Source of the DNA: Ruaniaceae bacterium KH17
GTDB taxonomy: Bacteria > Actinomycetota > Actinomycetes > Actinomycetales > Actinomycetaceae
Assembly (NCBI GenBank): GCA_900199505.1
Contig: FZQV01000004.1
Coordinates: 1-64,000, forward strand
Direction of reading: 5' to 3'
DNA: 64,000 nt
How positions within the stretch are numbered: the stretch's first letter is position 1; every line of letters begins with the position of its first letter. The translations under genes and the position numbers were made by a program. Shown here piece by piece: positions 4,443 through 46,547 of this stretch. Below the pieces are notes generated by a model. It had not been told where the DNA came from. It saw only the letters and a program-made list of their open reading frames with translations, and did not search any database.

Positions 4443-7243
4443 GCTACACCTCGCGCCATATTGGCGCCGCAGGGTCCGATCGCGCCCTGATGCTGGAGGC
4501 TGTTGGCCACACCAGCCTCGAGTCTCTGCTCGAATCGGCCGTTCCGGCGTCGATCTTCGAGGCGACTCCCACCGCGGGGGTGCCCGCGGGCCGTTCCGAT
4601 TCCGAGGTGCTGGCGCGGCTGCGTGAGATTGCCTCGAAGAACACAGTGCGGGTCTCGATGATCGGTCAGGGCTACTACGACACCGTGACACCATCTGTCA
4701 TTCAGCGGAACATCCTCGAGAATCCCGCCTGGTACACGGCCTACACGCCGTACCAGCCAGAGATTTCACAGGGCCGTCTCGAGGCACTGCTGAACTTCCA
4801 GACCATGGTCGCCGATCTCACCGGACTGGCAACTGCCGGAGCGTCCATGCTCGATGAGTCAACGGCCGCCGCCGAGGCGATGCTACTGGCCCGACGTGCC
4901 TCGAAGTCAAAGGGTTCGCGCTTCTTCGTTGAGAAGGATGTGTTCGAGCAGACGCGAGCTGTCATCGAGACCCGAGCAGCCGCCGTCGGGATCGAGCTCG
5001 TCGAGTTCAACGCAGACGAGTGGGTGGACCTCGACGGCGCATTCGGCGTGCTCGTGCAGCAGCCGGGCGCTTCGGGACGCGTGCTCCCGGACGCAGTACT
5101 GACGGAACTCGCGGCCTCGGCACACGCCGCCGATGCGCTTCTCGCGGTGGCGCTGGATCTGCTCGCAGCGACCGTGATCGCGGCGCCGGGAGATCTCGGC
5201 GCGGACATCGCCGTGGGCACCACCCAGCGGTTCGGCGTACCGATGGGCTTTGGCGGGCCGCACGCGGGGTATATCGCCGTGCGCGCGGGGCTGGAGCGGC
5301 AACTGCCGGGCCGTCTCGTGGGCGTCTCGAAGGACGCAGTGGGCGCGCCGGCATACCGGCTTGCGCTCCAGACGCGCGAACAACACATCCGGCGCGAAAA
5401 GGCCACGAGCAACATTTGCACCGCGCAGGTGTTGCTTGCGGTGATGGCGTCGATGTACGCCGTCTGGCATGGGCCCGAGGGCCTCACGGCGATCGCGAAC
5501 CGGGTGCACGCGCAGACGGCGCGGCTGGCGGCGAGTATCGAGGGCGTCGAGAATCAGACATTCTTCGACACGCTGACCGTGCGCGTCTCAAATGCGGCGG
5601 AGAGCCTCGCCGCCCTGCAGAGCCGCGGCGTGCTTGCGCGCCCGATCGACGCGACCCACATTGGGCTCTCGCTCGACGAGACCACCACGGTGGAGCACCT
5701 CGAGATCGTGGTGGACGTGCTCGGTGGCACGCTCGCCGATTCGGTGGGGGAGAGCGCGCTGGGCACGGCTCGCACAAGTGAGTTTCTCACCCACCCGATC
5801 TTCTCCACGTACCGTTCCGAGACGTCGATGATGCGCTACCTGCGCAAGCTCGCGGATAAGGACTTCGCGCTGGACCGCGGCATGATCCCGTTGGGATCCT
5901 GCACGATGAAGCTGAACTCCGCTGTCGAGATGGCCGCCATCACCTGGCCGGAGTTCTCGAAGGTGCACCCGTTTGCCCCGGCCGACGACGTCGCAGGCTA
6001 CCGCGAGTTGATCGACGAGTTGCTGAGCTGGCTCTCCGCGCTCACCGGGTATGCCGGTGGCAGCGTTCAACCGAATGCCGGTTCGCAGGGCGAGTACGCA
6101 GGCCTCCTCGCGATTCGGCGCTACCTCGACGCGCGCGGCGAAACCGAGCGAACGATCTGCCTGATTCCGTCCTCCGCGCACGGCACCAATGCGGCCTCAG
6201 CGGTGCTTGCGGGAATGAAGGTGGTTGTCGTTGCGTGTGACGACGCCGGGAATGTGGACGTGGCCGATCTGGCCGCGAAGATCGACGCACACGGTGCGCA
6301 GCTCGCTGCGATCATGATCACCTACCCATCGACGCACGGTGTGTACGAGGTTGCGGTCACGGAGATCTGCGAGATGGTGCACGCCGCGGGCGGGCAGGTG
6401 TACATCGACGGCGCCAACTTCAACGCGCTCGTGGGCGTCGCCCGGCCGGGCGCATTCGGTGGCGATGTGTCGCACCTCAACCTGCACAAGACCTTCGCCA
6501 TCCCGCATGGTGGCGGTGGCCCCGGTGTGGGGCCCGTGATGGTGGCGGAGCATCTACTGCCGTACCTTCCAGGGCATCCGCTCGATCCGTTCGGTGGCCC
6601 AAGCGCTGGTGCCGTTTCGGCTGCACCGCACGGTTCGCCGTCGATCTTGCCGATTTCGTGGGCGTACATCGCCCTGCTCGGGGCCGACGGGCTTCGCGAA
6701 GCCACCGCGAGCGCGGTGCTCGCCGCGAACTATGTGGCGGCGCAGCTTGACGAGGATTACCCCACTCTGTACCGGGGGCCGGGCGGGCTGGTGGCGCACG
6801 AGTGCATTCTCGACACGCGCATCCTCAAGAACGAGACGGGTGTGACCGTCGATGACGTCGCAAAGCGCCTCATCGATTACGGCTTCCACGCGCCAACGAT
6901 GTCCTTCCCTGTGGCGGGAACACTGATGGTGGAGCCCACCGAGTCCGAGGACAAGGGCGAGCTCGATCGGTTCTGTGAGGCGATGCGCGCCATTCGCGAG
7001 GAGTCGCGTGCCATTGGCGCCGGAACCTGGCCCGCGGGGGATAACCCACTTGTGAACGCGCCGCACACGGCGGAAAGCCTCGTCACTGCGTGGGACCACC
7101 CGTATGAGCGTGCCGAGGCTGTCTACCCAGGCGGTACCTCACCCGACGGGAAGTACTGGCCGCCGGTGCGCCGGATCGATGGAGCGTGGGGCGATCGCAA
7201 CCTGCAGTGCGCCTGCCCTGCCCCGGAGGCGTTCGCGCACTAG
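4439..7243 (+). CDS. gcvP: Glycine decarboxylase (P protein)
   Basis: A 934-residue single-chain P protein that decarboxylates glycine with pyridoxal phosphate and passes the aminomethyl group to GcvH. The PLP lysine is K684 in [15 protein letters not shown]. Other signatures include the N-terminal MIGQGYYDT and [20 protein letters not shown], the LGSCTMKLN segment, and PSSAHGTN. The full length matches fused (not split) P proteins. It overlaps gcvH by four bases and is the last gene of the operon. No terminator is obvious in the 123 bases before sigA. Confidence 0.97.
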
Positions 7244-44239: not shown

Positions 44240-44265
44240 AGTGCCCCGAGGAGACTCGGGGCACT
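44240..44265 (+). terminator. Intrinsic terminator of the tRNA cluster
   Basis: An 11-bp perfect stem (AGTGCCCCGAG / CTCGGGGCACT) with a GAGA loop, followed by TTCGTT. It separates the tRNAs from the sulfur operon. Confidence 0.9.
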
Positions 44266-44311: not shown

Positions 44312-44330
44312 ATACCCTCAGGGGTATAAC
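44312..44330 (+). promoter_or_regulatory. CsoR/CstR-like operator overlapping the sqr -10 box
   Basis: ATACCC-TCAG-GGGTAT (44312-44327) is a 6-bp inverted repeat with a four-base centre, the form of CsoR-family operators, including the persulfide sensor CstR and copper sensor CsoR. TATAAC at 44325-44330, a plausible -10 box, overlaps its right half, so a bound repressor would block the promoter. A good -35 is not seen. The regulator gene is not in the window. Confidence 0.6.
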
Positions 44331-44367
44331 GCACCCAATGGTGGGTGCCTCGGACAAGGGAGCCCAT

Positions 44368-45606
44368 ATGACCGAGATCGTGATCCTTGGCGGAGGAACG
44401 GCCGGCACGCTGATCGCCAACACGCTCGTGAAGAAGAAGCTCCCATGGCACATCACCGTGATCGATCGCAACGATGAACACCACTACCAGCCCGGATACT
44501 TGTTCGTGCCATTTGGGATGATGCCGGCGAGCCGGGTCGCGAAGTCCCGCACGAAGTTTCTGCCCGACGGCGTGGACCTGATCATCGATGCAGCGGTCAC
44601 GATCGATCGGGCCGCGCATGAAGTTGTCCTCTCCTCGGGGCGCCGGGTCCGCTACGACCAGCTGATCATCGCCAGCGGCACTATCCCGGATCCGGCGGCG
44701 GTCCCGGGTATGGCGGACGGCATCGAGTGGTACCGGTCCGTCTTCGACTTCTACACGCTCGAGGGCGCGGCGGCCCTCGCTCCCAAGATCAAGGGTCTCG
44801 AAAAGGGTCGGCTTGTGGTGCACGTGAGCGAGACTCCGATCAAGTGCCCGGTGGCGCCGCTCGAGTTCGCGCTGCTCGCCCAGGACTACATGCGCAAAAA
44901 GGGCCGGAACTGGGGTGTGGACGTTGTCTACGTGACTCCGCTCGACGGCGCCTTCACAAAGCCCGTGGCATCAAGGACCTTGGGTGGACTGCTGGCGGAG
45001 CGGGGGATTGAGCAGATCACGGACTTCCAGGTTGAAGAGATCGATAACGGGGCGAAAGAGCTCGTCAGCTACGACGGCCGACGGGTCCCGTTCGACCTGC
45101 TGGTGACAGTCCCACCAAACCGTGGGTCCGCCGTCGTGATCGAATCCGGTTTGGGGGATGAGGCCGGGTTCGTGGCCGTCAACAAGCACACGCTGCAGTC
45201 CGAGATCGATCCGGACATTTGGGTCCTCGGCGACGCCACCAATGCCCCCACCTCGAAGGCGGGTTCGGTGGTGCACTTCGAGGCCGCCGCGTTTGTGCCG
45301 AACCTCATCGCACACGTCGCTGGTGAGCCGCTACCGAAGCTGTTTGACGGTCATGCCAACTGCTTCATTGAGTCGGGCCGCGGTGAGGCCATGCTCCTCG
45401 ACTTCAACTACGAGCAGGAGCCGGTGACCGGAGTGTTCCCGCTGGCCGGTGTGGGGCCGCTTAAGTTGCTGCGTCCATCGCGACTGAATCACCTCTCGAA
45501 GCTCGCCTTCGAGGGTGTCTACTGGCATGCGCTCTTGCCGGGACGACCGCTGCCGTTCCCGCACGACATGTCCACTGCGGGCAAGAACCTCGAGTCAACG
45601 AACTGA
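44368..45606 (+). CDS. sqr: Sulfide:quinone oxidoreductase-like flavoprotein
   Basis: A 412-residue FAD oxidoreductase: dinucleotide motif ILGGGTAG (6-13), ATG-like SGTIPDP and a C-terminal WVLGDATNAPTSKAGSV FAD segment. Two cysteines could form the redox/persulfide pair, C160 (ETPIKCPVAP) and C332 (GHANCFIE), in the positions expected for SQR. The C-terminus (LNHLSKLAFEGVYWHALLPG) is a membrane-attachment type segment. It would oxidise sulfide to persulfide and pass electrons to menaquinone. ATG at 44368 follows GGGAG; the frame is open upstream through the tRNAs. First gene of a three-gene sulfur operon. Confidence 0.85.
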   Translation: MTEIVILGGGTAGTLIANTLVKKKLPWHITVIDRNDEHHYQPGYLFVPFGMMPASRVAKSRTKFLPDGVDLIIDAAVTIDRAAHEVVLSSGRRVRYDQLIIASGTIPDPAAVPGMADGIEWYRSVFDFYTLEGAAALAPKIKGLEKGRLVVHVSETPIKCPVAPLEFALLAQDYMRKKGRNWGVDVVYVTPLDGAFTKPVASRTLGGLLAERGIEQITDFQVEEIDNGAKELVSYDGRRVPFDLLVTVPPNRGSAVVIESGLGDEAGFVAVNKHTLQSEIDPDIWVLGDATNAPTSKAGSVVHFEAAAFVPNLIAHVAGEPLPKLFDGHANCFIESGRGEAMLLDFNYEQEPVTGVFPLAGVGPLKLLRPSRLNHLSKLAFEGVYWHALLPGRPLPFPHDMSTAGKNLESTN

Positions 45607-45617
45607 AAGGAGCGATC

Positions 45618-45935
45618 ATGCCCGTCAACACATTCCTGGGCCGCCAGGTCGACGTGAACGAGGAAGGGTTTCTCACGAAGCCCGAACAGTGGGATGAGGA
45701 GCTCGCCGTCCTACTTGCGAGTTACGCGGGAGTCGACGAGCTGACTGAGGCCCACTGGGCCGCGGTACGTTTCGTTCGCGCTGACATGCTCAAGACCGGT
45801 GCCTCGCCCACCCTGCACCGCATGCGCAAAGTGGGCGGACTCGACACCAAGCAGCTTTTCGAGCTCTTTCCCGGCAAACCTGCCAAGAAGCTGGCCTATG
45901 TGGCCGGCGGACCCAAACCCACGGCCTGCGTGTAG
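45618..45935 (+). CDS. tusE: TusE/DsrC-family sulfur-carrier protein
   Basis: A 105-residue DsrC-fold protein with the family's C-terminal arm ending PKPTACV. The penultimate cysteine C104 is the sulfur carrier. The second cysteine of true DsrC, ten residues upstream, is missing (KKLAYVAGG), so this is the one-cysteine TusE/RspA type. The N-terminal VDVNEEGFLTKPEQWDEELA is typical. An AAGGAGC ribosome-binding site precedes it. It lies 11 bases after sqr, and no TusBCD or MnmA is here, so it likely takes persulfide from the neighbours rather than serving tRNA thiolation. Confidence 0.88.
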   Translation: MPVNTFLGRQVDVNEEGFLTKPEQWDEELAVLLASYAGVDELTEAHWAAVRFVRADMLKTGASPTLHRMRKVGGLDTKQLFELFPGKPAKKLAYVAGGPKPTACV

Positions 45936-45944
45936 GAGATCGCT

Positions 45945-46547
45945 ATGCCTCTTGATCGTGACGGAAACGTCATCCCCGATTTCGGTGACGCTGCGGCAGC
46001 CACAAAGGTCGCACCTGGCTCCGTCGCTGAGTCGACATACAGCGGTCCACGAAAGATCGCCTTCATTTGCTCCAAAGGCAACCTCGATATGGCCTATCCA
46101 GCGCTCATCATGGCGAACGCGGCACTTGGCGAGGGCGTGGAGGTGCATATCTTCTTCACGTTCTGGGGCCTCGACATCGTGGATGTGCGCACTCAGGACA
46201 AGCTGAAGTTCAGTTTCGCCGGCAACACCGCGATGCACATGCCGCAGTTGGAACGCGTCGCGGGCGGTCTCGGCACGAAGTCCTTCCCGCAGGCGTTCGC
46301 CGGGATTCCCGGCATGACGCCGTTTGCGACGCACATGATGAAGCAGCAGATGGACGATCTCGGCATCCCGCCAGTGCGGGAGATGATCGAGACGGTCGCG
46401 GCCTTGGGCGCCAACCTCTGGGCCTGCCGGCTCACCGTCGACATGATGCAGATCAAGAAGGCACAGCTACACCCGGCGGTGCAGGACGTGATTTCGGCGA
46501 CGGACTTCATTGAGCTCTCGGCGGGTGGGCAGATCATCTTCGTCTGA
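45945..46547 (+). CDS. DsrE2/DsrE-DsrF-like sulfurtransferase
   Basis: A 200-residue protein of the DsrE2 (DsrE/F/DrsH-like) family. The core has KIAFICSKGNLDMAYPALIMANAALG, VHIFFTFWGLDIV, and the sulfur-binding cysteine in NLWACRLTVDMM (C161); C42 is a second candidate. An N-terminal stretch of about 34 residues precedes the fold. DsrE2-type proteins relay sulfane sulfur with TusA or DsrC partners. Nine bases after tusE, it completes the sqr-tusE-dsrE2 operon. No TusA, rhodanese or persulfide dioxygenase is visible nearby. Confidence 0.88.
   Translation: MPLDRDGNVIPDFGDAAAATKVAPGSVAESTYSGPRKIAFICSKGNLDMAYPALIMANAALGEGVEVHIFFTFWGLDIVDVRTQDKLKFSFAGNTAMHMPQLERVAGGLGTKSFPQAFAGIPGMTPFATHMMKQQMDDLGIPPVREMIETVAALGANLWACRLTVDMMQIKKAQLHPAVQDVISATDFIELSAGGQIIFV

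Follow-up and report, generated by a model that had tools for sequence, protein, structure and literature searches.

Human mitochondrial SQOR, a sulfide:quinone oxidoreductase (SQR), passes sulfur to small acceptors. The cst-type systems of Staphylococcus, Enterococcus and Bacillus bring together CstR/YrkD, rhodaneses, CoA-persulfide reductase, SQR and persulfide dioxygenase, and in E. faecalis CstR controls the CoA-persulfide reductase (PMC9405070). SQR also exists as a Type III selenoprotein subtype (NF049943; PMC13188914). DsrE-type and DsrC-type proteins are sulfur-transfer partners in the DsrEFH-DsrC relay of purple sulfur bacteria, where, in A. vinosum, sulfur passes from DsrEFH to DsrC (PMC3397948). 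A DsrE2-type protein is found in dsrE3A-dsrE2B-tusA, a small sulfur-trafficking cluster of Metallosphaera cuprina whose partners are TusA and an Hdr-like complex (PMC4175335).

We analyzed a window of 64,000 nucleotides from Ruaniaceae bacterium KH17, in which sqr is followed by the genes of a one-cysteine TusE/DsrC-family carrier and a DsrE2-like sulfurtransferase (Table 1). The parts of this cassette are of kinds known from cst and sqr-pdo systems. It shares with the cst type a site for a CsoR-family sulfane-sulfur repressor, sqr, rhodaneses and a CoA-disulfide-reductase-rhodanese behind a similar operator. Unlike in those systems, the acceptors would be a one-cysteine DsrC-type carrier and a DsrE2-like protein, TusA is lacking, no persulfide dioxygenase was found in the genome and the regulon is scattered over contigs. 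The window SQR belongs to the same flavoprotein family as the Type III subtype and scores above its cut-off, but it has Cys for Sec at 332; the Sec-SQR forms found in the phylum, unlike the window, have no adjacent pair of one-cysteine TusE and DsrE2. SQOR is the nearest solved structure and both its catalytic cysteines align with those of the window SQR, whereas here we propose a protein carrier as the acceptor. In contrast to the DsrEFH-DsrC relay, DsrAB is absent, the DsrC homologue has a single cysteine and is linked to SQR, and the direction of transfer may differ. Compared to the Metallosphaera cluster, the partners of the DsrE2-type protein are SQR and a DsrC-type carrier. We found no account of the trio as a conserved unit, of its fusion or of its CstR-type operator in the open-access papers searched.

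Table 1. Features of the sqr-tusE-dsrE2 block, its regulon and related loci
Feature	Position	Strand	Remarks
sqr: sulfide:quinone oxidoreductase, 412 aa	44368..45606	+	ATG at 44368
One-cysteine TusE/DsrC-family sulfur carrier, 105 aa	45618..45935	+	PF04358, TIGR03342
DsrE2-like sulfurtransferase, 200 aa	45945..46547	+	PF13686
Perfect 11-bp stem AGTGCCCCGAG-GAGA-CTCGGGGCACT	44240..44265	+	3' of tRNA-Val, read from sequence
CstR/CsoR-type predicted operator ATACCCTCAGGGGTAT	44312..44327	.	40 bases upstream of sqr start
Operator site 1			Ahead of sqr-tusE-dsrE2 (44312..44327)
Operator site 2			Ahead of CstR-like gene, then CoA-disulfide reductase with rhodanese domain
Operator site 3			Ahead of lipoprotein rhodanese
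Operator site 4			Ahead of second SQR-like flavoprotein
Operator site 5			Ahead of small cysteine-rich protein, then rhodanese and thioredoxin
Operator site 6			Ahead of YgaP-type membrane protein
Operator site 7			Ahead of copper-type csoR
Sec-SQR orthologues	L182 4751-5962; L184 359-1570; L183 4783-5991; L185 4046-5230		
Sec-SQR orthologues, continued	L186 4235-5446; L181 5277-6488; L187 683-1870		
Fused SQR-TusE loci	L007, L018, L020, L021, L025-L027		
DUF1641 inserts	L069 4650-5333; L082 6240-6911; also L095, L116, L126, L073		

The genes are separated by 11 (sqr/tusE) and 9 (tusE/dsrE2) bases, matching the spacing reported by the first-pass annotation, and a purine-rich ribosome-binding site stands ahead of each. 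That annotation opened the block at 44312, which is the first base of the operator-like palindrome; the sqr start codon is at 44368. Judging by its sequence, the stem 3' of tRNA-Val is probably a terminator dividing the tRNA cluster from sqr. The terminator scan, which requires a longer T run, left it unflagged. A candidate terminator 3' of dsrE2 was rejected because its stem is no more stable than shuffled sequences (z -0.29), and co-transcription with thrS is thus possible. A sigma-70 promoter for sqr was also discarded, as a two-hexamer match is absent.

Profile searches assigned the SQR to Pyr_redox_2 and NF049943 (543.4 bits, curated cut-off 525). Its closest PDB sequence is human SQOR, and Cys160 and Cys332, the only two cysteines of the protein as first described, align with the SQOR catalytic pair. 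This alignment and the score above cut-off bear out the original SQR assignment. For a model of a fused SQR-TusE relative, the best fold match was again human SQOR (Z 46.3, rmsd 2.4 A over 394 residues, the search covering the SQR part). Both cysteines are invariant (100/100 sequences). The active site of the window SQR reads HANC (Cys332), without the selenocysteine HxxU of the selenoprotein subtype, while seven genomes of one other actinobacterial family encode SQR orthologues in which an in-frame TGA falls precisely on position 332 (DGHAT-U-FIVTG); for the one scored, the Sec-SQR model gives 611 bits. The Cys/Sec exchange singles out this residue as catalytic. As NADH and ferredoxin reductases also belong to the broader flavoprotein family, the enzyme might be imagined to reduce carrier-bound persulfide or another disulfide instead of oxidizing sulfide; the sequence match to SQOR with both catalytic cysteines aligned, the SQOR-like fold of the fused relative and the exchange of one of these cysteines for Sec in orthologues make this highly improbable.

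The carrier matched DsrC (PF04358) with 94.8 bits and exceeded the cut-off of the TusE/DsrC/DsvC superfamily (TIGR03342, 69.3 vs 53.5 bits) but not that of the TusE tRNA-thiolation equivalog (NF008562, 60 vs 191 bits). Its single cysteine is the penultimate residue, Cys104, in agreement with the initial description, and is kept in 98/98 sequences; in the AlphaFold model the C-terminal cysteine has a pLDDT below 50. Where DsrC has its second cysteine, 11 residues ahead of the C-terminal cysteine, the carrier has Ala93 and all 98 relatives have A, S or T, so that the second cysteine of the DsrC of dissimilatory metabolism is missing. The third protein belongs to the DsrE/DsrF/DsrH-like superfamily by its profile match (DrsE_2, PF13686, 109.6 bits) and its conserved Cys161, but it remains below the cut-off of the DsrE2 equivalog (NF047629, 97 vs 210 bits). 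When its relatives were scanned singly, NF047629 was the sole model matched, with 100-117 bits in two. Cys161, correctly named at the outset, is present in 95/95 sequences, and the only other cysteine, Cys42, in 66/96. From these scores, the carrier and the DsrE2-like protein are relatives of the TusE and DsrE2 equivalogs and not members of them. Genome G013 has one more, distant DsrE2-like ORF (L038 2039-2494), some 8 kb upstream of its sqr block.

In the Sec-SQR stretches read, we detected no adjacent match to the one-cysteine carrier or to DsrE2, and the DsrC of Sec-SQR genomes has both cysteines. This two-cysteine DsrC is divergent to Sec-SQR at L181 and, at L189, stands beside two genes reading as dsrA and dsrB (named by eye from sequence). 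The contrast suggests that the one-cysteine carrier accompanies Cys-SQR, whereas the two-cysteine form accompanies DsrAB.

We then looked at the distribution of the trio. Among 149 near relatives drawn from the window's family and order, the carrier occurs in 24 genomes and a strong SQR in 23, and these are the same genomes (Fisher p ~4e-26) with a sole mismatch where the carrier is cut by a contig end. The SQR alignment, scanned against species genomes, yielded 80 named loci, and the three-gene block sought in related genomes was recovered at 75 of them as sqr-tusE-dsrE2, in order and on one strand. The carrier is present at 78/80 of these loci; of the five without the full trio, four are cut off by the end of their contig and the fifth, L099, has only SQR. 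Hosts belong to Actinomycetota, Bacteroidota, Verrucomicrobiota, Acidobacteriota, Rhodothermota, Chloroflexota and Deinococcota. In a phylum-wide sample, SQR was found within about 1 kb of all 19 carriers scoring above 100 bits. By these sequence counts, the linkage of the trio is more than chance. The divergence of the three proteins is also correlated (r 0.74 to 0.88; permutations <=0.17), which vertical descent alone could explain. Beyond the trio, no neighbors are widely conserved apart from DUF1641 and cstR-like genes. A DUF1641 (PF07849) gene sits between sqr and tusE at about a dozen loci from different phyla, and its product may be an SQR partner. At two other loci the SQR frame is broken once while tusE and dsrE2 are intact, by an in-frame TAA (L194 5516-6634) or a frame change (L045 8197-9419), which may reflect sequencing error or decay.

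In same-family relatives, a loose linker joins SQR and the carrier into a single chain of 570-590 residues. Such a fusion implies that the product side of SQR faces the same compartment as the carrier. Two independent origins of the fusion were considered and rejected: two changes are required on the 104-column TusE tree, but this is overruled by the better-resolved SQR tree, where every fusion lies to the same side of a branch (97/92). One genus carries a tandem pair of fused SQR-TusE genes together with dsrE2 (L047 6478-12463, also genomes G019 and G049), and the second copy evolves fast (long branch in the tree).

The fusions, the matching presence and absence of SQR and carrier, and the invariant cysteines are consistent with the persulfide relay through two carriers that the first-pass annotation had put forward. 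Co-regulation alone would account for the linkage if SQR, as is usual, freed its sulfur as polysulfide or small-thiol persulfide and each carrier scavenged cytoplasmic sulfane sulfur independently, without direct hand-off; B. licheniformis and S. aureus indeed cluster DsrE, TusA and rhodanese proteins without known direct contact (PMC9918477). Against such independent scavenging, which we consider unlikely, stand the single-chain SQR-TusE fusions and the near-perfect pairing of SQR and TusE at short distance.

A whole-genome search found no TusA, a single query found no persulfide dioxygenase in the genome, and the sulfite/nitrite reductase domain NIR_SIR (PF01077) is absent from this genome, rated 100% complete, which probably makes it dependent on reduced sulfur sources. 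In a few relatives, a persulfide dioxygenase gene is close to the block (L055, L045, L093). The early statement that the window is without TusA, rhodanese, persulfide dioxygenase and Dsr reductase agrees with these searches, except that rhodaneses are encoded elsewhere in the genome. Its companion claim, that the block does not serve respiratory sulfite reduction, is upheld by the lack of the NIR_SIR domain and of the second DsrC cysteine in the carrier. On contig 13 of the same genome, an ORF with SGVGYV-type repeats includes an 18-bp tandem repeat at 5611-5704 (L142 4605-6239).

Sulfur could also flow the other way, from rhodaneses to DsrE2 and TusE for tRNA or cofactor thiolation, with SQR just limiting the pool. 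E. coli TusE acts in tRNA thiolation and the known direction in A. vinosum is from DsrEFH to DsrC, both established for these families. Such a biosynthetic role is nevertheless quite improbable in a genome without TusA, with a carrier so far under the TusE equivalog cut-off (60 vs 191 bits) and fused, in relatives, to SQR; the patchy, SQR-dependent distribution (24/149 genomes) is also ill-suited to a housekeeping tRNA function.

The predicted operator fits the ScCsoR site of S. coelicolor, ATACCn6GGTAT (PMC7533328), is the only such site within the window and overlaps a -10-like TATAAC (44325-44330). Directly after it, the sqr leader contains another palindrome, GCACCC-AATGGT-GGGTGC (44331-44348), which could be a weaker second repressor site or a leader hairpin. 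The genome holds seven ATACC-N6-GGTAT-type palindromes (Table 1), compared to none for the reversed control pattern. The second SQR-like flavoprotein (486 aa, contig 32, L143 2491-3948) scores 61 bits against the SQR model and lies 61 bases behind an ATACCC...GGGTAT palindrome. The CstR-like protein, encoded on contig 20 and thus on a different contig from sqr, matches Trns_repr_metal with 75 bits. In its motifs DCEQV and QQCV the second Cys is not preceded by His, in contrast to the copper-linked CsoR paralogue (DHLNHC), so that it has the two cysteines but lacks the copper-ligand histidine of CsoR, as expected of a CstR. In other genomes, a shorter operator motif was found in 24/99 sqr upstreams, which include two rows of the same genome; from its frequency elsewhere in these loci, 0.43 would be expected. 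CstR control is therefore not universal. A CstR-like gene flanks the sqr block in about nine relative loci.

The first-pass annotation had called the block a compact, minimal set. This view was not retained, since the block belongs to a larger gene set, all behind the same CstR-type operator, in which rhodaneses are joined by a thioredoxin and by a CoA-disulfide reductase-rhodanese; the recurrence of the operator at sulfur genes indicates that the apparent minimality was a window effect. Gene identities, catalytic cysteines, linkage, fusion, and the operator with its recurrence are thus established at the sequence level.

Our preferred reading, with a probability of roughly 0.6, is a CstR-controlled, persulfide-induced sulfide-oxidation cassette in which sulfur passes from SQR to TusE, to the DsrE2-like protein and on to the rhodanese/reductase set of the regulon. 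We infer the direction from SQR through TusE to DsrE2, the role of TusE as acceptor, the sink and the signal of the repressor. Rising sulfane sulfur would inactivate the CstR-type repressor and free the operator. SQR, at the cytoplasmic membrane, would oxidize H2S, deliver two electrons to quinone and hold the sulfur as a Cys332 persulfide. This sulfur would be taken by Cys104 of the carrier, in place of a small thiol or sulfite, and then by Cys161 of the DsrE2-like protein. The latter would pass it to same-regulon rhodaneses and to the CoA-disulfide-reductase-rhodanese, to be re-reduced or redistributed. By analogy with CstR and CoA-persulfide reductase in E. faecalis, the reductase-rhodanese would be the most likely sink. 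The A. vinosum direction, from DsrEFH to DsrC, is opposite to the proposed one, so that the two carriers could act in reverse order.

The conserved linkage and the fusions suggest that SQR may transfer its reactive sulfur directly to a protein, without setting it free in the cell. For a whole widespread branch of SQR, we see an even chance that a dedicated DsrC-type protein, and not a small thiol, sulfite or polysulfide, is the direct persulfide acceptor, in a membrane-to-protein relay without Dsr, Sox or TusA. The Cys/Sec swap marks position 332 as the catalytic residue. If true, the relay would give a testable answer to what accepts the sulfur of SQR in bacteria without glutathione. An SQR-linked carrier would also explain the "DsrC/TusE" gene of many heterotrophs that have no dissimilatory sulfite reductase, and it calls for caution before dsrC/tusE is taken to indicate dissimilatory sulfur metabolism, since the one-cysteine, SQR-linked form is something else.
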